Positions 20,989-51,407 of a stretch of 64,000 nucleotides of DNA are shown piece after piece. The first letter of the stretch is position 1. Each line of letters begins with the position of its first letter. A model generated the notes under the pieces. That model saw only the letters and a list, made by a program, of their open reading frames with translations, was not told the origin of the DNA and did no database searches. Both the position numbers and the translations under genes were made by a program. The stretch lies in NCBI RefSeq assembly GCF_017310035.1, contig NZ_CP022296.1, forward strand, positions 4,685,523-4,749,522. The letters run 5' to 3'. The stretch comes from Nocardioides sp. S5 (GTDB lineage Bacteria; Actinomycetota; Actinomycetes; Propionibacteriales; Nocardioidaceae).

Positions 20989-23523
20989 TCAGCCCTGAGC
21001 CATGTCCACGAAGCGCGAGTAGTGGCCCTGGAAGGCGACGGTGAGGTCGCGGGTCGGGCCGTTGCGGTGCTTGGCCACGATCAGGTCGGCCTCGCCCGGG
21101 CGGGTCGACTCCTTCTCGTAGACGTCGTCGCGGTGCAGCAGGATCACCATGTCGGCGTCCTGCTCCAGCGACCCGGACTCACGCAGGTCGCTCATCATCG
21201 GGCGCTTGTCGCCGCGCTGCTCGGGACCACGGTTGAGCTGGGAGAGCGCGATGATCGGCAGCTCGAGCTCCTTGGCGAGGAGCTTGATGTTGCGGGAGAA
21301 CTCCGAGACCTCGAGCTGGCGGGACTCGACCTTCTTGCCCGAGCTCATCAGCTGCATGTAGTCGATGACGATGAGCTTGAGGTCGTGGCGCTGCTTGAGC
21401 CGGCGCGCCTTGGCCCGGATCTCCATCATCGTCATGTTGGGGCTGTCGTCGATGAACATCGGCGCCCCCGACACCTGGCCCATCTTGCGGGCCAGCTTCT
21501 CCCAGTCGTCGTCGCGCATCGTGCCGTTGCGGATGTGGTTGAGCGGCACCTTCGCCTCGGCCGAGAGCAGGCGCATCATGATCTCCGAGCGCGTCATCTC
21601 GAGGCTGAAGAAGCAGCTGGTGAGGTTGTTGTGGATCGACGCCGCGCGGCAGAAGTCCAGAGCCAGGGTCGAGTTGTGCGTGGGGATCATCGATCGCCCG
21701 GCGAGGTAGAGGTGATCCTCGTTGTCGACCTGCACGCACCGGACGGGCACGGACTCGATGCGCTGCACGGATGTGATGTAGCGCTTGCCGATGCGGACGG
21801 TGGACGTCGGACGCTCCTCCTTGTGGAGCAGGGCCTTGCGCTCCAGCTTGAACACGTCATCGACCGTCGAGAAGTTGAGGATGTGACACGTGGAGGACTC
21901 TTCCGAGCGCCCCTTCACCCGCTTCGTCGTACGTCCGCACCGGTAGCCCAGGCTCACGACGAGCTCGTGGACGGTGTCGGCCAGCCGCTCGCTGGTCACC
22001 GCGAACTGCACGGAACCCACCCCCTTGACCACGGTGCCGTCGGTGTCGAGCAGCCCGGCGAGCAGGTCCCGGCGGGCCTCCTCGGAGGCGCGCAGGTAGA
22101 CGCTTGGAACGTGCTTGTCGTTCAGCACGCCGACCGTGCGCAGGAGAGCAGTGAAGGACCCGTGGTCCTGCTGGCACGGGCTGCAGAGATAGGTCCCGTG
22201 CATGACACCGCTGCAGTCGGGGCACACGCCTGGCTCCGGAGCTGCGGACCGAGACGTCCGGATGCTGTAGAGCATGTTGCCCTGCGACGTGACGACGTAG
22301 CCGCGGCCCTCGATCCGCATCGGGATCTCGGGGGTCTCGCAGGTGATGCGGCCGCCGGCGCTGTGACCATCACCCAGCCATGCCCCGAGGACGTAGGGGT
22401 CGATCGGGAGACGGCCGTCGTGGCCCGTCAGGGCACCCGCGTTGAGCACGGCGTGGTTGGCGCGCTGCTCCGCCCCGACTCGCACCGTGCGGGCGATCTC
22501 CTCCGTGGTCACCACGGAGGCGTGGATGCGCTGATTCTTCGACCGGTTGTAGTGGTGGTCCGCCGCCCAGCGTGACTTCCTGGCCGCGCGCGTCTCGGTC
22601 AGCCACTGGTGCTCGCCGTCGGCGACGATCACCGAGCCGTCGGAGAAGGTGACCTCGTAGCACGGTCGATCGAGCATGACGTCGGTCGCGGCCACGACCC
22701 GGGTGGGACGACCGTCTGCGTCGTAGAGCTGGTCGCCGACCCGGACCTCGCCCATGGTGGTCCAGCCGGTCGGCGTCGGGAGGGGCGTGTCGAGCGCCAG
22801 CGCCTTCCCCATGGCAGGACGCGCCGCGACGATGATCATCTGCCCCGAGTGCAGGCCGTTGGTCAGGTCGTCGAGGTCGGCGAAGCCGGTGGGCACGCCG
22901 TAGAGGCCGGCCTCGCGGTTGCCGATCGCCTCGATCTCGTCGAGGACGCCGCTCATGATGTCGCTCAGCGGCGCGTAGTCGACGGCTGCACGCCGGTCGG
23001 TGACCTTGTAGACCTCGGCCTGGGCGTGGTCGACCACGTCGTCGATCTGGCCCTCGCCGGCGTAGCCGAGGGCGGCGATGCGGGTGCCGGCCTCGACGAG
23101 GCGGCGCAGGATCGCCTTGTCGCGCACGATCTCGGCGTAGTAGCCGGCGTTGGCCGCGATCGGCACGTTGGCCGACAGCGTGTGGAGGTAGGGGGCGCCA
23201 CCGATGCGCTGGAGCTCGCCGCGCTTGGTCAGCTCCGCAGCCACGGTGATCGGGTCGGCCGGCTCACCGCGGCCGTAGAGGTCGATGATCGCGTCGTGGA
23301 TGATCTCGTGGGCGGGGCGGTAGTAGTCCACGCCCTTGATGACGTCGACGACGTCGGCGATCGCGTCCTTGGAGAGCAGCATCGAGCCGAGCACGCTCTG
23401 CTCGGCGGCGTTGTCCTGCGGGGGCGTGCGGTCGCCGGCGGAGCGCGGCGCGTCGCCGGGCTCGTAGGCCGCCGGGCCGTCGCCCCAGGCCTCGTCGGTG
23501 TCGCCCTCGAAGGTGATGCTCAC
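20989..23523 (-). CDS. dnaB: Replicative DNA helicase DnaB with in-frame intein
   Basis: Precursor of 844 aa; removal of the intein leaves a normal 467-aa hexameric 5'-3' helicase that unwinds at the replication fork. The N-terminal primase-interacting domain covers residues 1-160 (PPQDNAAEQSVLGSML). The RecA-like domain starts near 205 (GVPTGFADLDDLTNGL). Walker A is split by the intein between Lys240 (ARPAMGK) and Ser618 (STLALDF), so the helicase should be inactive until splicing. Walker B is LIVIDYMQLM (about 717-726), followed by the DnaB motif LSQLNRGPE. GTG 23523 follows GAGGGGAG. Confidence 0.98.
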   Translation of the reverse strand: MSITFEGDTDEAWGDGPAAYEPGDAPRSAGDRTPPQDNAAEQSVLGSMLLSKDAIADVVDVIKGVDYYRPAHEIIHDAIIDLYGRGEPADPITVAAELTKRGELQRIGGAPYLHTLSANVPIAANAGYYAEIVRDKAILRRLVEAGTRIAALGYAGEGQIDDVVDHAQAEVYKVTDRRAAVDYAPLSDIMSGVLDEIEAIGNREAGLYGVPTGFADLDDLTNGLHSGQMIIVAARPAMGKALALDTPLPTPTGWTTMGEVRVGDQLYDADGRPTRVVAATDVMLDRPCYEVTFSDGSVIVADGEHQWLTETRAARKSRWAADHHYNRSKNQRIHASVVTTEEIARTVRVGAEQRANHAVLNAGALTGHDGRLPIDPYVLGAWLGDGHSAGGRITCETPEIPMRIEGRGYVVTSQGNMLYSIRTSRSAAPEPGVCPDCSGVMHGTYLCSPCQQDHGSFTALLRTVGVLNDKHVPSVYLRASEEARRDLLAGLLDTDGTVVKGVGSVQFAVTSERLADTVHELVVSLGYRCGRTTKRVKGRSEESSTCHILNFSTVDDVFKLERKALLHKEERPTSTVRIGKRYITSVQRIESVPVRCVQVDNEDHLYLAGRSMIPTHNSTLALDFCRAASIHNNLTSCFFSLEMTRSEIMMRLLSAEAKVPLNHIRNGTMRDDDWEKLARKMGQVSGAPMFIDDSPNMTMMEIRAKARRLKQRHDLKLIVIDYMQLMSSGKKVESRQLEVSEFSRNIKLLAKELELPIIALSQLNRGPEQRGDKRPMMSDLRESGSLEQDADMVILLHRDDVYEKESTRPGEADLIVAKHRNGPTRDLTVAFQGHYSRFVDMAQG
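21673..22803 (-). mobile_element. DnaB intein, class 3 type (Ala1, W-C-T), with LAGLIDADG endonuclease
   Basis: 377-residue intein, DnaB residues 241-617, between GK and S of Walker A. It starts with Ala, not Cys/Ser, so the standard N-terminal acyl shift is impossible. It has the class 3 signature instead: Trp67 in block B (DGEHQWL), Cys356 in block F (VRCVQV, at the position usually Asp) and Thr375 in the terminal PTHN, followed by extein Ser. A homing endonuclease is inserted with two LAGLIDADG helices (VLGAWLGDGH and LLAGLLDTDGT). Between them lies CPDC...CSPC, a zinc-ribbon-like pair. Both splicing and homing functions appear intact. Confidence 0.93.
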
Positions 23524-23995: not shown

Positions 23996-25495
23996 TCAGA
24001 GCTGCAGCAGCGTGCGGACCACGACGCCGAGGCCGACCGCGCAGATACCCAGCGCGGCGCCGTACCTCAGGTAGGTGCGCACCTGGCCGCCGAGGAAGCC
24101 GCGGCGCAGGGCCAGGCCCTCGAGCCGCAGCACCAGGTCGCGGGCGAGCAGACCGACCGCGGCGAGCGCGACGGCCATGCCGACCCCGAAGGCCAGCACC
24201 AGCACGAACCCGAACCACGGACGCCCCAGGGCGACGGCGGCCAGGAGCAGCAGCAGGGCCGAGGGGCTCGGGACGAGACCGCCGACCAGGCCCATCACCC
24301 ACACGCCCCCGCGGCCGGGCGTGGCCTCGGGCTCCACCGCGGCCGGGGCCTCGACGACCGTCGCGGTGGCGGTCGTCGTCCCGGCGGGAGCGGCCGGCGC
24401 GTGCTCGTCGTGCCCGTGCCCGTGGCCGTGCCCGTGGCCGTGTCCGTGCCCGTGCCCGTGCCCGTGCCCGTGCCCGTGCCCGTGGCCGTGGCCCCCGCCC
24501 GAGCGCAGCTGGGCCAGCAGGTAGAGCCCGAGGCCCACGATCAGCAGGCCGGTGGCGAGGGTGAGCCAGGGATAGATCCGCGCCGGCACGAACGCACTGC
24601 TGAGCGAGACCAGCAGGCCCAGCAGCAGCACCGAGCCGGTGTGCGCCACCGTCACCGCGCTGCCCACCGCGAGCGCCGAGCGGACCGAGGAGTCCCCGCG
24701 CTGGGTGAGGTAGAACGCCATGACGGTCTTCCCGTGCCCGGGCGAGAGCGCGTGCGTCGCACCCAGGGCGAGCGCCGCGAGGACGGCCAGGCCCGCGGCC
24801 AACCATCCGTTGTCACCGAGCAGGCCGGTGGCCCGCGACGACAGCCAGGAGCCGTCGGAGGCACCCGGCCCGTCGTCCCCGGTGCCGGGCAGCTCGCCCG
24901 CGGGACCGCCGGTGGCGACGACGAGCGTCGCGGAGGTGACGTCCAGCGGGGACTCGAGCAGGTCCTCGGGGTAGGACGTGAGGCGTTCGCTGGCGCTGAC
25001 CGACGGGACGTCCGCGCTCGTGAGCGTCATCCGGTCACCGACCGCGGTGACCTCGCGCCAGCCCACGGAGCCCGGGGCGGTCGAGTCCTCGAAGGTGACC
25101 TCGCCGGCGCCGATGTCGGCGGCGCCGGAGTAGCGGCAGGTGATGCGGGTGACCGGCAGCCCGCCCTCGCCGTCGGAGACCGACGCGGTCACGTCCTCCA
25201 CCTCGAGGCGTACGCCGTCGCCGCCGGCCGTGACGGCCAGCCCGTCGGTGGTCGTGGCGCACTCGCGTGCGGCCAGCGCCGGCAGGTCGTCGATCGCGTC
25301 GCCGAGCTGGGCCGTCGGGATCTCGGCGAGGTCGACCACGTGATCCACCTCGACGCCGTCGGGTGAGACGAGGATGCCGGTGTAGCGGTTGACGGTGAAG
25401 TTGCCCAGCGGGTGGGCCGAGGCCGGCGCCGCGGTGACGACCAGGCACGCGAGGAGCGCGCCCAGGGCCAGCAGCACACGTACGAGCGTCCTCAT
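23996..25495 (-). CDS. NicO-family nickel/cobalt transporter with extracytoplasmic domain and His-Gly run
   Basis: 499-aa membrane protein. A signal peptide is cleaved after PASA27, giving a mature N-terminus HPLGNFTVN, then about 190 extracytoplasmic residues, then 6-7 helices of the NicO/RcnA type. The family metal site is THALSPGHGKTVM (His248, His254). A cytosolic or lumenal loop at about 336-361 is an uninterrupted His-Gly alternation of 13 His, an obvious Ni/Co/Zn-binding tail. ATG 25495 overlaps the stop of the TPR gene (ATGA). Direction of transport (uptake or efflux) is not decided by sequence. It ends a DUF4331-TPR-NicO operon. Confidence 0.87.
   Translation of the reverse strand: MRTLVRVLLALGALLACLVVTAAPASAHPLGNFTVNRYTGILVSPDGVEVDHVVDLAEIPTAQLGDAIDDLPALAARECATTTDGLAVTAGGDGVRLEVEDVTASVSDGEGGLPVTRITCRYSGAADIGAGEVTFEDSTAPGSVGWREVTAVGDRMTLTSADVPSVSASERLTSYPEDLLESPLDVTSATLVVATGGPAGELPGTGDDGPGASDGSWLSSRATGLLGDNGWLAAGLAVLAALALGATHALSPGHGKTVMAFYLTQRGDSSVRSALAVGSAVTVAHTGSVLLLGLLVSLSSAFVPARIYPWLTLATGLLIVGLGLYLLAQLRSGGGHGHGHGHGHGHGHGHGHGHGHGHGHGHDEHAPAAPAGTTTATATVVEAPAAVEPEATPGRGGVWVMGLVGGLVPSPSALLLLLAAVALGRPWFGFVLVLAFGVGMAVALAAVGLLARDLVLRLEGLALRRGFLGGQVRTYLRYGAALGICAVGLGVVVRTLLQL
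24411..24492 (-). repeat. Hexanucleotide tandem repeat coding His-Gly
   Basis: About 13-14 tandem copies of TGCCCG/TGGCCG (period 6) encode the (Gly-His)n run of the NicO protein. Near-identical units make the tract prone to slippage in multiples of one His-Gly pair, so run length may vary between strains without frameshift. Confidence 0.85.
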
Positions 25496-26811
25496 CGGCG
25501 CGGCTCCGGTCCCGGGTCCAGACCGGCCAGCACCGACTCGGCCTCCGCGCGCTGCCACGGGGACAGGCCCGGGTCGAGGTCCAGCCCGCGGCGCAGATGG
25601 GTGCGGGCGTCGGCAGTCATCCCGAGGCCGGCCTCGATCGTGCCGCGGTGGATCCAGAACCGCGCCTCGGGCGAGCCGAGCCGGGTGGCCTGCCGGGCGA
25701 TCGGGAGTGCCTCGCGGTCGCGGCCGCTGCGGTGCAGCGCCCAGGCCAGGGCGTCGGCGACGTGGACGCTTCGGCGCTGGTCCCACTCCGCCTGCGCCTG
25801 GGTCAGCGCCCGCTCGGCGGACCCGTGGTCGGCCTCGAAGAGCGCGGTCTCCAGGTCGGTGCCCACGCCGCTCGCGGAGAGCAGGTCGATGGTGGTGCGG
25901 ACGACCGCGAACTGCGCGTCGGCCTCGTCGGTGCGGCCCAGGTGGAGCAGGAGCTCGCCGAGCTCGGTGAGGTACTCCGGCAGCGGCTGGCGCGCGGCCA
26001 CCTCCTGCCAGGTCGCGACGGCAGCCTCCAGGTCTCCCTGCGCGACCTGGAGGCGGGCGGTCGAGACGAGGGCGGGCAGGTGGTCCGGCACGGCCTCCTG
26101 CGCGACGGCGAGACGACGAGAGGCCTCGGCGAGGCGGCCCTGCTTGCGCAGGATGTCGGCGTAGAGGGTGAGCGTGTAGGCCTGGTCGGCACGCGAGCCG
26201 ACCTGGGCCGTACGCCGCAGCAGCGCGCCGGCCCGGTCGAGGTCGCCGCGCAGCTCGAAGGCGTAGGAGTAGCGGGCCGAGACGGCCGTGCTGGGCTGGA
26301 GCCGGTCGGCGGTGCGCAGCGCCTGCATCTGCTCGTCGTACCTGCCGAGCTCGTTGAGGGCGTCGACGCGCACGGCGAGGGCGCCGAGGTCGCGCGGGTT
26401 GACCGCGAGCGCCTCGTCGGCGCTGGCCAGCGCGTCGGTGAAGTCGTGGCGGGCAGCGGAGATCGCGGCGCTGGCAGCCAGGGCGGTGAAGTTCTCGTCC
26501 GGCTCGAGCTCGAAGGAGCGTGCGACGGCCTCGTCGGCCTTGTCGTAGAAGGTGGCGTTGCCGGACACGCGGGCCTGCTCGACGTACGCCACGGCGAGGT
26601 TGGCCCACGAGACGTGGTCGGCCGGCACCCGGCGCAGGGTGTCCTGCAGCGCGGCGATGCTGGCCTCGAGGTCCTGGCCGGAGTCGGGGACCACGCGCGG
26701 GACGGCCGCTGCCGGCGGGGCGGTCGACGGCGACGACGTGGTGGCCACGCCGATGCCGCCCGAGACACCCAGGACGAGTCCGACGCCGATGACGATCAGG
26801 CTCCTGCGCAC
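25492..26811 (-). CDS. Tetratricopeptide-repeat membrane-anchored protein
   Basis: 439-aa protein with an N-terminal signal anchor (RSLIVIGVGLVLGVSGGIGVA) and a short Pro/Ala/Ser linker. Then follow roughly ten TPR helical pairs, for example VSWANLAVAYVEQARV, GALAVRVDALNELGRYDEQM, TLYADILRKQGRLAEASRRL and ARTHLRRGLDLDPGLSPWQ. TPR scaffolds mount protein-protein contacts, here probably outside the membrane. GTG 26811 lies 78 nt after the DUF4331 stop, and its stop overlaps the NicO start. Its role is presumably to hold the DUF4331 protein and transporter together; that is inference. Confidence 0.85.
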   Translation of the reverse strand: MRRSLIVIGVGLVLGVSGGIGVATTSSPSTAPPAAAVPRVVPDSGQDLEASIAALQDTLRRVPADHVSWANLAVAYVEQARVSGNATFYDKADEAVARSFELEPDENFTALAASAAISAARHDFTDALASADEALAVNPRDLGALAVRVDALNELGRYDEQMQALRTADRLQPSTAVSARYSYAFELRGDLDRAGALLRRTAQVGSRADQAYTLTLYADILRKQGRLAEASRRLAVAQEAVPDHLPALVSTARLQVAQGDLEAAVATWQEVAARQPLPEYLTELGELLLHLGRTDEADAQFAVVRTTIDLLSASGVGTDLETALFEADHGSAERALTQAQAEWDQRRSVHVADALAWALHRSGRDREALPIARQATRLGSPEARFWIHRGTIEAGLGMTADARTHLRRGLDLDPGLSPWQRAEAESVLAGLDPGPEPRR

Positions 26812-26846
26812 GGGGACGTCCTTTCGGTGGGAGCGGTGGTGCGGCC

Positions 26847-26875
26847 CGGCCGCGCGACGAGTCGCCGCGCGGCCG
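26847..26875 (-). terminator. Hairpin between DUF4331 and TPR genes
   Basis: CGGCCGCGCG (26847-26856) pairs perfectly with CGCGCGGCCG (26866-26875) over a 9-nt loop, in the 78-nt gap between the two genes. It is either a partial terminator that lowers downstream expression or a 3' stabiliser of the DUF4331 message. Confidence 0.55.
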
Positions 26876-26889
26876 AGCCGGTGGTGCGG

Positions 26890-28377
26890 TCAGTCCTTGC
26901 GGGTGCGTCGCGCAGCGCCGCCGATGCCACCGATGAGGGCCAGGAGGCCCACACCGATGAACGCGACGGAGCTCTTGCGACCCGGGACGACGCTCTGCAG
27001 CAGGCCCTCGGTCGAGGACTGCTTGTTCGCCGAGCCGCCCGCGGACGGGTGCGGGTCGGCGTTGCTGCCGCTGGCCGGGAGGGCCAGGTAGGGGAACGTC
27101 CCGCTGAACGCGGCGTCGTTGGCGTCGACGCCGTCACCGAGGTCGTTCGCCGAGCCCACGAGCTCGCCCTCGACGACCTGGAGCGCGATGTCGATGACGT
27201 CGTCACCGAGCCGGCGGCCGTTGGGGAAGCCCTGCGTGTCGCCACCGATCACGCCGAGCCGGTTGGGCTCCGCGGTGACCGGGGTCGACATGTTCAGGCG
27301 CAGCTGCTCACTGGGCGTGACCTTGCCCTTGGCCTTGTTGAGGCCCTTGACGCCCGTGAGGAACACCGACACGAGGTCGTTGCGCGGGGTCGCCGGCGCG
27401 TCGATGCCGTAGACGGCCTCGACGAGCTTGGGCAGCTCGGGGTTGGTGACGTACTTCAGCGCGGCGCCGTCCTGCGTGGGCTTGGAGGCGTTGAACGCGT
27501 CCTTGAGCTTCAGTGGGATGACGACCTCGTTGACCAGCGGGTTGCCCAGGCGCGAGACCTGCTGGAACCTGCCGTTGGCGCCCTTCTTCTGCGTCGTGGT
27601 CCAGGTGCCGATGACCGGGTTCTTCTTCGCGTCCTGGTTCTTCGCGATCCACCTCTGGGGCACCTGGAGCGCGACCGACTGGACGTTGAAGCCGGCGAGC
27701 GTGTCGTCACCGGACTCGGAGAGGTCACCGCCGTAGAGCAGGTCGAAGACCCGCAGGTCGAGGAAGAACGGGTCCTCGGCCTGGCCGGCGAAGGACTTGA
27801 CGTTCTTCACCGGGCTCGTGGTGGCCTGCTCGCGCAGCGCCTCGTAGTCGGGCATGGACGCCTTGCCGATGTTCGACGGGGCGACCCGCTTCTTCTTGAC
27901 GATGACCTTCGTCTTGCCGGACTTGTTGATCCGGACCAGGCGGTAGGTCTGGTAGTAGTTCAGGTCCTTGTCGGCCAGGGACGTGACCGGGCCGGTGGCG
28001 GCGAGGAACGTGTCCTTGGTGACGTAGTGGTCCTTGAACGTCCACCGGAAGGTCACGTCAGGCTTGGCATCGGCGTTGTTGTCGACGTGGATGTCGTACT
28101 GCGCGTCGGTCGCGAAGCTGTAGAAGTTCGGACCGCCGGCCGGCTCCTCGAAGGGCAGCCAGTTGGCGACCAGCGTGACGCTGTTCTGCTTCTCCGGGCT
28201 GCGGAAGGCGTACAGGTCCGTGCCGTCGTACTGCGGGGTGCCCGAGATGAGCGGCGCCTCGCGGTGGCTGGACGCGCTGGCGCCCAGCGGGCCTACGCCG
28301 GCGAGGCCGACCGTGGTCAGCAGGCCTCCGGCGCACGCCAGGGCCACAGCCCCGTGCCGCTTGGTGGGTCGTGTCAT
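26890..28377 (-). CDS. DUF4331 secreted/membrane-anchored protein
   Basis: 495-aa exported protein of the DUF4331 family, function unknown. After the signal peptide (GLAGVGPLGASA) the mature protein begins SSHREAPLISGTPQYDGTDLYAF, given here only as the hallmark SSHREAP...D.TDLYAF. The central domain is beta-rich (residues 40-440). The C-terminus has a hydrophobic helix (SVAFIGVGLLALIGGIGG) followed by ARRTRKD, a membrane anchor with positive stop; there is no LPxTG. ATG 28377 follows AAGGAG. It is the first gene of the operon with the TPR and NicO genes, which points to a metal-related role. Confidence 0.9.
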   Translation of the reverse strand: MTRPTKRHGAVALACAGGLLTTVGLAGVGPLGASASSHREAPLISGTPQYDGTDLYAFRSPEKQNSVTLVANWLPFEEPAGGPNFYSFATDAQYDIHVDNNADAKPDVTFRWTFKDHYVTKDTFLAATGPVTSLADKDLNYYQTYRLVRINKSGKTKVIVKKKRVAPSNIGKASMPDYEALREQATTSPVKNVKSFAGQAEDPFFLDLRVFDLLYGGDLSESGDDTLAGFNVQSVALQVPQRWIAKNQDAKKNPVIGTWTTTQKKGANGRFQQVSRLGNPLVNEVVIPLKLKDAFNASKPTQDGAALKYVTNPELPKLVEAVYGIDAPATPRNDLVSVFLTGVKGLNKAKGKVTPSEQLRLNMSTPVTAEPNRLGVIGGDTQGFPNGRRLGDDVIDIALQVVEGELVGSANDLGDGVDANDAAFSGTFPYLALPASGSNADPHPSAGGSANKQSSTEGLLQSVVPGRKSSVAFIGVGLLALIGGIGGAARRTRKD

Positions 28378-28480
28378 GAGCGATAACTCCTTGATGTCGA
28401 CCCGGGGCCTTCGGAAGGTGCTCCACCCGGGCAGCCCAGGCTCCAGACGGGGCCGGGGTGAGGTGTGTTCGGGGTCACTC

Positions 28481-28494
28481 CCCATCCGGATGGG
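28481..28494. promoter_or_regulatory. Perfect palindrome upstream of the DUF4331 operon
   Basis: CCCATCCGGATGGG, a 14-bp perfect palindrome, lies in the 185-bp divergent region between the DUF4331 operon and the MATE gene, 104 bp from the DUF4331 ATG. It is followed by TATTT, an AT-rich patch rare in this genome. It is a candidate operator for an unlinked, possibly metal-sensing, regulator. Confidence 0.45.
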
Positions 28495-49490: not shown

Positions 49491-51407
49491 ATGCCGACGT
49501 CGATGCAGGCCGGTGACGTCCTCGCCGGGCGCTATCGGCTCGACGACCTGCTCGCCGAGAGCGCCGGCGGGCGGTTCTGGCGCGCCCACGACCAGGTGCT
49601 GCACCGCGCGGTCTCGGTGCACCTGCTGCCCGGCGACGACGAGCGCGCGCCGGCGCTGCTCGAGGCCGCCCGGCGCAGCGGTCCGGTGGTCAACCGTCGC
49701 CTGCTCCGCGTGCTCGACGCGGAGGTCGCCGACGGCCGGTGCTACGTCGTCAACGAGTGGGGCCAGGGCGAGTCGCTCGACATCCTGCTCACCCGCGAAG
49801 GTCCGCTGGCGCCCCGGCGCGCGGCCTGGCTCGTCGGGGAGGTGGCCGACAGCATGGCCGAGGCCCACGACGCCGGCCTCGCCCACGGCTGCCTGACCCC
49901 GGAGAACGTGCTGATCGACCAGCACGGGCAGGTGCGGATCATCGGCTTCGGGGTGGAGGCGGCCCTGCGCGGACTGCCCGCCGGGCGGATCAGCGTCGAC
50001 GAGATCGACCTCGCCGGGCTGCTCTACTGCGCGCTCACCGGCAAGTGGGCCGGCGTGTCGGAGTCGGGGGTCCCCGCGGCTCCCGAGGTGCACGGCGACG
50101 TGCTGCGCCCGCGTCGCGTCCGGGCCGGCATCCCGCGGATGCTCGACGCGCTGTGCGACCAGGTCCTCAACCCCGAGCACGCGCCGGGCGAGGCCGGCTC
50201 CGACTACACCGCGCGCCGGCTCCGCGACCTGCTCCACGACTACGTCGGCGACGTCGCCGGGACGCCCCTGCCCGTGGCGCCCGGGGTCCCGCTGGTCACC
50301 ACGCCCACCCCGACACCGACCGTCCCGGACGGCGACGTCGTCGACGCCGACGCGATCGAGCCGGACCCGGAGCCCGCACCCGAGCCCGAGGCCGCACCCG
50401 ACCCTGAGCCCGACCCGCAGCCCGAGCCGGCCCCGACGCCCGTCGTCGACCTCCCCACCCAGGCGGGGATGCCGGTCTTCCACGACGACGACGAGGTCGA
50501 CTGGCTCCGCGCGCGCGCCGACAAGCCCGCTCCCCCGCCGCCGCTCGACGACCCGACCCCGAAGCCGCTCTTCGCCCCCGACCCGCCCGACGGGGAGCCC
50601 GTACGCCGTCCGCGTCCCGGCAGCCGCGCGGCCAACGGCGGCCAGGGCTACTGGCCCTGGGACGTCTCCCAGGACTCCTCGGTCAGCCAGGACTCCGGCG
50701 TCCGGCCGCCGCCCGGTCGTGACACGGGTTCGTGGTCGTCGGGGTCGTGGGCGGGCGACCGCTGGGGCACCGGCGACGGGCTCGACGACACCGGCGAGCA
50801 GGTCCCGGGACGCAGCTGGATCCGGCTCGCGATGATCGTGGGCATCTGCCTGCTGGTGGGTGTCGCGGCCGTCGCGGCCTACCAGCTCGGGCTGAAGCCG
50901 CCCATCCCCGGCGACTCCACGGACGAACCGACCACGAGCGCGAGCCCGACCGCGACCGAGCCGACGCCCTTCACCGACCTCGTCGCCGACGACTTCGACC
51001 CGCAGGGCGCGCCGCCGCGCGAGGAGAACCCCGAGCAGGTCCCCAACGTCGTCGACGGCGATCCCGCGACCGCGTGGACCACGTCGACCTACGAGCAGAA
51101 CTTCGGTCCCGGCGGGCTCAAGAGCGGCGTCGGCGTCGTCATCGACCTCGGCACCACCCGCGCGGTGCGCCGGGTGGTCGTGACCACCTCGGGCGGCCAG
51201 ACCGCCCTGGCGGCGTACGTCACCTCCGAGGCGCCCACGGGCGTCGCGGGCCTCACCCCGGTCGACACCGCCTCCGCCGACGGCCCGGTCACGATCGAGC
51301 TCGACGAGGCGGTCTCGGGCCGCTACGTCACCGTCTGGCTGACCCTGATCCCGGCGGTCGACGGCGGGTTCCGCGGCACGATCTCCGAGGTGCAGGTGCT
51401 CGGATGA
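49491..51407 (+). CDS. Membrane pseudokinase with discoidin-like outer domain
   Basis: 638 aa. The kinase fold (residues 10-250) lacks catalysis: the ATP Lys is replaced (AVSVHLLP, His44), the catalytic loop reads HGCLTPENVLI instead of HRDxKxxN, and DFG is GFG (152-154). A Pro/Glu/Asp linker (280-435) precedes one helix (LAMIVGICLLVGVAAVAAY, about 445). The outside domain (about 500-638) is a beta-sandwich of F5/8-type-C appearance (VVDGDPATAWTTSTYEQ, RYVTVWLT). It matches the C-terminal part of mycobacterial MviN, a scaffold for phospho-dependent FhaA binding. Located between murJ and sigM; stop overlaps sigM. Confidence 0.88.
   Translation: MPTSMQAGDVLAGRYRLDDLLAESAGGRFWRAHDQVLHRAVSVHLLPGDDERAPALLEAARRSGPVVNRRLLRVLDAEVADGRCYVVNEWGQGESLDILLTREGPLAPRRAAWLVGEVADSMAEAHDAGLAHGCLTPENVLIDQHGQVRIIGFGVEAALRGLPAGRISVDEIDLAGLLYCALTGKWAGVSESGVPAAPEVHGDVLRPRRVRAGIPRMLDALCDQVLNPEHAPGEAGSDYTARRLRDLLHDYVGDVAGTPLPVAPGVPLVTTPTPTPTVPDGDVVDADAIEPDPEPAPEPEAAPDPEPDPQPEPAPTPVVDLPTQAGMPVFHDDDEVDWLRARADKPAPPPPLDDPTPKPLFAPDPPDGEPVRRPRPGSRAANGGQGYWPWDVSQDSSVSQDSGVRPPPGRDTGSWSSGSWAGDRWGTGDGLDDTGEQVPGRSWIRLAMIVGICLLVGVAAVAAYQLGLKPPIPGDSTDEPTTSASPTATEPTPFTDLVADDFDPQGAPPREENPEQVPNVVDGDPATAWTTSTYEQNFGPGGLKSGVGVVIDLGTTRAVRRVVVTTSGGQTALAAYVTSEAPTGVAGLTPVDTASADGPVTIELDEAVSGRYVTVWLTLIPAVDGGFRGTISEVQVLG

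Follow-up and report, generated by a model that had tools for sequence, protein, structure and literature searches.

A conserved DUF4331-TPR-NicO operon of Nocardioides sp. S5 as a candidate envelope metal-acquisition relay

What do a DUF4331 protein, a tetratricopeptide repeat (TPR) protein and a NicO-type permease do together when their genes adjoin? The question is raised by a 64,000-nucleotide stretch of Nocardioides sp. S5 (the window; NZ_CP022296.1, 4685523-4749522), which is the last part of a single-contig genome (4,749,522 bases). An earlier note, made from the letters of the window, had proposed that the three genes form an operon for metal handling. Our results uphold a conserved three-gene system, a metal-type outer domain on the permease and a link to nickel and cobalt; a palindrome that the note had listed as a separate element did not stand. 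We regard it as moderately probable that these genes specify a relay for metal acquisition in the envelope, in which capture at the cell surface would feed an anglerase-like NicO permease.

The three genes are all on the minus strand at the positions previously proposed (Table 1). The TPR and NicO genes overlap in an ATGA, the coupling already recognized in the earlier note, and 78 nt separate the DUF4331 and TPR genes; the spacing, common strand and kept order suggest a single transcript. Hydropathy was in line with the topology suggested before, namely an exported, C-terminally anchored DUF4331 protein (hydrophobic segments at residues 9-29 and 468-490) and an anchored TPR protein, whose sole hydrophobic segment is N-terminal (residues 3-25) and precedes the TPR repeats. 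The NicO protein has an N-terminal segment and a membrane core. Its His-Gly run contains 14 His, where 13 had been counted.

DUF4331 was matched in 58 of 296 sampled Actinomycetota genomes, some of the matches being short or divergent. NicO proteins with an outer domain, taken as those whose match started within the first 25 residues, were present in at least 37 of the 296 genomes, a lower bound because five candidates were scored in most genomes. DUF4331 was also found in 35 of these 37 genomes, a co-occurrence far above chance (Fisher p = 1.3e-27), and so the linkage on which the earlier proposal depended was found. The two genes were located within 6 kb of each other in 30 of the 35 genomes and on separate contigs in the other 5. 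Among 80 named DUF4331 loci, which were best matches and hence a biased sample, TPR was found in 73 and NicO in 67; the closest were from Nocardioides. When at least 3.5 kb of downstream sequence was available (67 named loci), both partners were found in 64 and the order DUF4331-TPR-NicO on one strand in 60. These results show that the DUF4331-TPR-NicO operon is real and widespread.

The module was also observed in other phyla, where 16 of the 34 matched plasmid records were read. DUF4331 occurs with a TPR-like protein and a HupE/UreJ permease in Marinobacter, Lichenicola, two Pseudoalteromonas and a Comamonadaceae strain, and in Variovorax by sequence. In these modules the TPR match was above the Pfam cut-off in Marinobacter and Pseudoalteromonas CF6-2 and below it in Lichenicola and the Comamonadaceae strain, and a small or Ig-like gene followed DUF4331 in most of them. 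Nostoc contains DUF4331, TPR (above the cut-off) and a NicO protein with the HPLGNF motif described below, while Miltoncostaea and Adhaeribacter contain DUF4331-TPR.

The sole Pfam match of the window permease at E <= 0.001 was NicO, and His248, Ala249, Pro252, Gly253, His254, Gly255 and Lys256 of its membrane signature were invariant in 20 aligned rows. Ala occupied position -1 of HPLGNF in 90 of the 92 NicO open reading frames (ORFs) with this motif, and the cleavage there, which would leave His as the first mature residue, is predicted from sequence. The solved structure best matching the outer-domain model was 9GCE, the Cu-bound anglerase domain, and in the model, as reported for 9GCE, strands 2 and 3 are separated by three helices. 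This His1 pattern and structural match support a metal-binding type for the outer domain recognized earlier on the NicO protein. Similar to the anglerase permeases Ang-1/Ang-2-HupE/UreJ-2 (PMC12537917; PDB 9GCE), the window permease has a His directly after a predicted signal peptide and, as its outer domain, an Ang-type beta-sandwich that is connected to a metal permease of several helices. However, Pfam found no C-terminal HupE/UreJ_2 membrane domain in the window permease at E <= 0.001, and its membrane part is NicO (PF03824). The permease is thus probably anglerase-like in its working, yet it stands outside the anglerase class, since it lacks the HupE/UreJ_2 domain.

A NicO membrane core and a His-rich loop are shared with RcnA and other NicO nickel-cobalt transporters, and the operon might alternatively serve metal efflux or tolerance, the permease exporting nickel or cobalt like RcnA while DUF4331 and TPR buffer or sense the metal outside. 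The long His run and the HALxPGHGKT signature, which resembles that of RcnA, agree with export, as does the sole NCBIfam match of the permease, the nickel/cobalt efflux model NF007454; however, the score of this RcnA-like model (98.1 bits) is under its cut-off of 195, and RcnA does not share the large exported N-terminal domain. In addition, HupE/UreJ proteins, called nickel permeases in PMC12537917, take the place of this permease in Pseudomonadota, and the operon has its promoter type, and in some relatives also its location, in common with the importer CbiMNQO. Efflux is therefore considered unlikely.

The predicted cleavage site of the exported DUF4331 members lies immediately before x-x-His. 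SSH or ASH was found there in 47 of 50 sampled ORFs scoring above 300 bits; two of the remaining three start M-SSH and one is cut at the contig end. SSH or ASH was likewise found at the predicted end in 83 of 84 DUF4331 proteins from named loci, the other one starting M-SSH, and in all 120 nearest database proteins, these three sets overlapping one another. Ala preceded the predicted mature end in 44/47, 83/83 and 117/120 of them, respectively. On plasmids, Ala was found before SSH in 13 of 16 loci, and the mature end is preceded by ALA in Nostoc (then SDH) and by LES in two Adhaeribacter loci (then SSH).

Short DUF4331 members without a signal peptide begin at the same point as the mature end of the exported members. 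Among 120 listed relatives of one short member (L084), residues 2-4 were SHH in 110 and SNH in 1, and LSH and VSH (one each) also give His at this position. The other 7 have no His there: one is without an N-terminus, and six have SHH 2 to 27 residues further in and are probably start miscalls. Seven loci with short or divergent members were also compared: M-SNH or M-SHH is the start in L082, L083, L084 and L088, PDH and ADH are possible starts in L086 and L087, and L085 gave no assignable start. Signal peptidase in the exported branch or Met removal in the short branch would therefore produce the same [S/A/P]-x-His end. A site for amino-terminal Cu(II) and Ni(II) binding (ATCUN) is defined by x-x-His at a free N-terminus. 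DUF4331 has this arrangement as a sequence prediction, and its end fits an ATCUN-type Cu/Ni site that may bind metal; the AlphaFold model is weak precisely at the N-terminus. A role of DUF4331 as an N-terminal nucleophile (Ntn-type) was also considered, and is unlikely because residue 1 varies (Ser, Ala, perhaps Pro).

ATCUN and His-brace sites prefer Cu(II), and in a copper system both N-termini would be copper sites, the permease would import copper, and CbiM would merely be co-regulated. Consistent with this, Cu2+ is the best-bound metal of both Ang-1 and Ang-2, with dissociation constants of 73.6 and 62.3 nM (PMC12537917), but Ang-1 also binds Ni2+ (220 nM), the membrane core of our permease is of the NicO class, and CbiMNQO adjoins the operon in relatives. 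We judge a copper system distinctly unlikely; nickel or cobalt is the most likely cargo of the relay, with copper as the alternative.

The C-terminal hydrophobic segment suggests that DUF4331 is located at the cell surface, as do two observations at other loci. A class F sortase gene lies between DUF4331 and TPR at L241:8785-9528, which hints at wall anchoring of DUF4331. On four Rhodobacterales plasmids (L175, L237, L238, L239), a type II secretion cluster adjoins DUF4331, an A24 (prepilin) peptidase gene precedes it in 3 of the 4, and neither NicO nor HupE was found beside it in the stretch shown. Alternatively, DUF4331 might be a surface adhesin or a glycan-binding beta-sandwich, in which the His at position 3 would be structural and the linkage to the permease would come from shared envelope regulation; this explanation appears very unlikely to us.

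The link to nickel and cobalt put forward in the earlier note gained support from CbiMNQO, a cobalt/nickel energy-coupling factor transporter with a matching promoter that adjoins the operon in some relatives; it is a separate, ATP-driven transporter, unlike the operon's permease. Genes for CbiM, a PDGLE protein, CbiQ and CbiO come after NicO in L091, L092, L244, L252 and L254, with a gap of about 1 kb in L254, and the CbiM cluster is divergent to DUF4331 in L094, a contig that breaks off within TPR. L250 and L091 represent one contig, and the adjacency is counted on 6 contigs. A SigK-type motif precedes cbiM in each of L244, L250, L252 and L254. In the window's genome, the single CbiM is away from the operon, together with CbiQ, PDGLE and ABC genes and the same motif. 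No CbiM was seen beside DUF4331 outside Nocardioidaceae among 157 loci. Because it encodes Ni-SOD and CobN, the genome uses nickel and, judging from CobN, probably cobalt. Urease as a further nickel user was dismissed, as no urease alpha match was found in the genome.

The alignment of upstream regions of DUF4331 revealed CC(A/C)ATCC, 16 or 17 bases, and CG(A/T)A(C/T). The motif CCMATCC-N13-18-CGWAY, derived from 21 aligned regions and counted over all 133 with those 21 included, was found upstream of 61 DUF4331 genes (shuffles: mean 0.1, maximum 2), with a spacer of 16 in 44 and 17 in 17. Three pairs of regions are identical; the motif was present in 59 of the 130 distinct regions and in 40 of the 109 distinct ones outside the motif-deriving set. 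A strict SigK motif, CYATCC-N14-19-CGAAY, matched 6 of the 133 regions (0.5 expected) and a looser version matched 15 (5 expected). SigK-like and RskA-like matches were both present in 53 of 147 loci scanned, and sigma and anti-sigma genes lie ahead of DUF4331 on two Pseudoalteromonas plasmids, where the anti-sigma factor scanned was RskA_C. On these motif counts, the operon promoter is a SigK/RskA-type extracytoplasmic function (ECF) promoter. The palindrome CCCATCCGGATGGG, treated as an element of its own in the earlier note, is by sequence the -35 box of this promoter plus a chance right half; it was rejected as an operator, because the window contains 19 perfect 14-nt palindromes, this one included, and because its right half is not conserved in the close relatives L091-L093.

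Eight motif sites were found in the window's genome, against 1 in the reversed control. Six precede DUF4331, a fasciclin-sigma-RskA-type anti-sigma cluster, a molybdopterin oxidoreductase, a CHRD-domain protein, a TPR paralog and CbiM, and two are doubtful. The RskA_C anti-sigma gene (94 bits; 4537268-4537672) lies behind the fasciclin gene (107 bits) and a sigma-70 gene. Twelve other genomes of the genus contained 63 sites (reversed control 6). In ten of them 40 sites were read, of which 18 precede no homolog of the window-genome targets and 22 do: fasciclin-sigK-rskA in 10 (one per genome), DUF4331 in 4, the oxidoreductase in 3, CbiM in 2, CHRD in 2 and the TPR paralog in 1. The order fasciclin-sigK-rskA behind an ECF promoter motif, found in the window's genome and in 10 of 10 relatives read, is similar to the mpt83-sigK-rskA cassette of PMC7509140, which states the SigK signal to be unknown; in contrast to the SigK regulon given there, the present motif is also found ahead of CbiM and of the DUF4331 operon. 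The available portions of the SigG1 paper (PMC7730460) and of PMC4821874 contained nothing bearing on the operon.

Several further observations concern this motif. In 11 of the genus loci read (L258-L268), a divergent stand-alone DUF4331 (36-40% identical) occurs, and in 5 of them a same-strand SigK-type motif lies upstream. The TPR paralog at L191:3997-5310 has a SigK-type promoter of its own and lies near a cation diffusion facilitator-like gene (by eye); no DUF4331 or NicO gene was seen in this stretch. The molybdopterin oxidoreductase domain protein (PF00174) at L189:4896-6437 is preceded by the motif both here and in three relatives. A further match in the window (50901-50928), upstream of an ECF sigma-like coding region recognized by eye, may be due to chance.

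Taken together, the favoured relay would work as follows. DUF4331, exported and surface-anchored, would bind Cu(II)/Ni(II)-type ions at its freed Ser-Ser-His as an ATCUN site, and the TPR protein would be an anchored adaptor holding DUF4331 against the permease. The ion may then be passed from DUF4331 to His1 of the permease, whose outer domain would act in the manner of an anglerase domain and accept the ion for delivery to the NicO channel, in the direction of uptake, not efflux. A SigK/RskA-like ECF sigma factor would turn on the operon together with the CbiMNQO importer in the genus. A periplasmic partner combined with a NicO-like permease is known from the ZevAB zinc system, which one paper in the literature searched, a resistome survey, names. 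Some observations weigh against the linkage of the three genes. P0002 was matched in 35 of 47 genomes with near full-length DUF4331, two of the matches being weak and partial; DUF4331 was matched in 27 of 88 genomes of the genus, two of them weakly; and the 23 genus loci read comprised all three genes in 6, DUF4331-TPR alone in 4 and a lone DUF4331 in 13. A broader proposal, which we put forward tentatively and hold to be doubtful, is that DUF4331 proteins make up a large and new class of metalloproteins of the ATCUN type, with exported and cytosolic members, that they need a free [S/A/P]-x-His for their function and that, with TPR, they hand metal inward to anglerase-like NicO and HupE/UreJ permeases, the SigK/RskA-type signal being nickel/cobalt (or copper) status.

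Table 1. Features of the DUF4331-TPR-NicO operon, in window positions.
Feature	Position	Strand	Basis
DUF4331 gene	26890-28377	-	495 aa; Pfam PF14224, 547.1 bits (curated cut-off 27)
TPR gene	25492-26811	-	439 aa; TPR families, top TPR_16, 66 bits
NicO-type permease gene with outer domain	23996-25495	-	499 aa; PF03824, 31.7 bits (cut-off 27.7)
Outer domain of permease, mature residues 1-188, anglerase-like fold	24851-25414	-	structural match of the model
His28 codon, predicted mature His1 (HPLGNF)	25412-25414	-	HPLGNF in 92/97 NicO ORFs
HALSPGHGK membrane signature, residues 248-256	24728-24754	-	alignment of 20 rows
His-Gly run, residues 336-362, 14 His	24410-24490	-	sequence
C-terminal hydrophobic anchor of DUF4331, residues 468-490	26908-26976	-	hydropathy
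Ser-Ser-His codons, residues 36-38, predicted mature DUF4331 N-terminus, ATCUN-type	28264-28272	-	AxA cleavage motif immediately before; His at position 3 kept in family
SigK-type ECF promoter, CCCATCC-N16-CGAAC	28467-28494	-	motif counts and alignment of relatives
Palindrome CCCATCCGGATGGG, overlapping -35 box	28481-28494	.	right half not conserved in L091-L093

A divergent MATE gene adjoins the operon, and dnaB (20989-23523) is located downstream of it. In the latter, the DnaB parts are interrupted by an in-frame insertion that matches LAGLIDADG and resembles an intein. Near the chromosome end, GTTTCACGTGAAAC occurs in three copies (window 60482, 60509 and 61394); we take it to be a parS site, bound by ParB.

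As the earlier note had stated of DUF4331, the family appears without an assigned function: neither DUF4331 nor PF14224 was named in the 5.39 million papers searched, from which the control term DUF1007 was retrieved in 4. NicO, TPR and DUF4331 are unnamed in the main text of the anglerase paper (PMC12537917), and the SigK control seen here by motif is not described in its available part. As far as searched, the anglerase-like domain on NicO is a combination that this paper does not name, and the soluble partners are undescribed. If the proposed relay is true, it would provide a function for the DUF4331 family of at least 7,996 proteins. The anglerase permeases, described only recently, would then gain soluble partners, and two permease families would prove to share them. 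The relay would also tie SigK/RskA-type sigma factors to metal supply.
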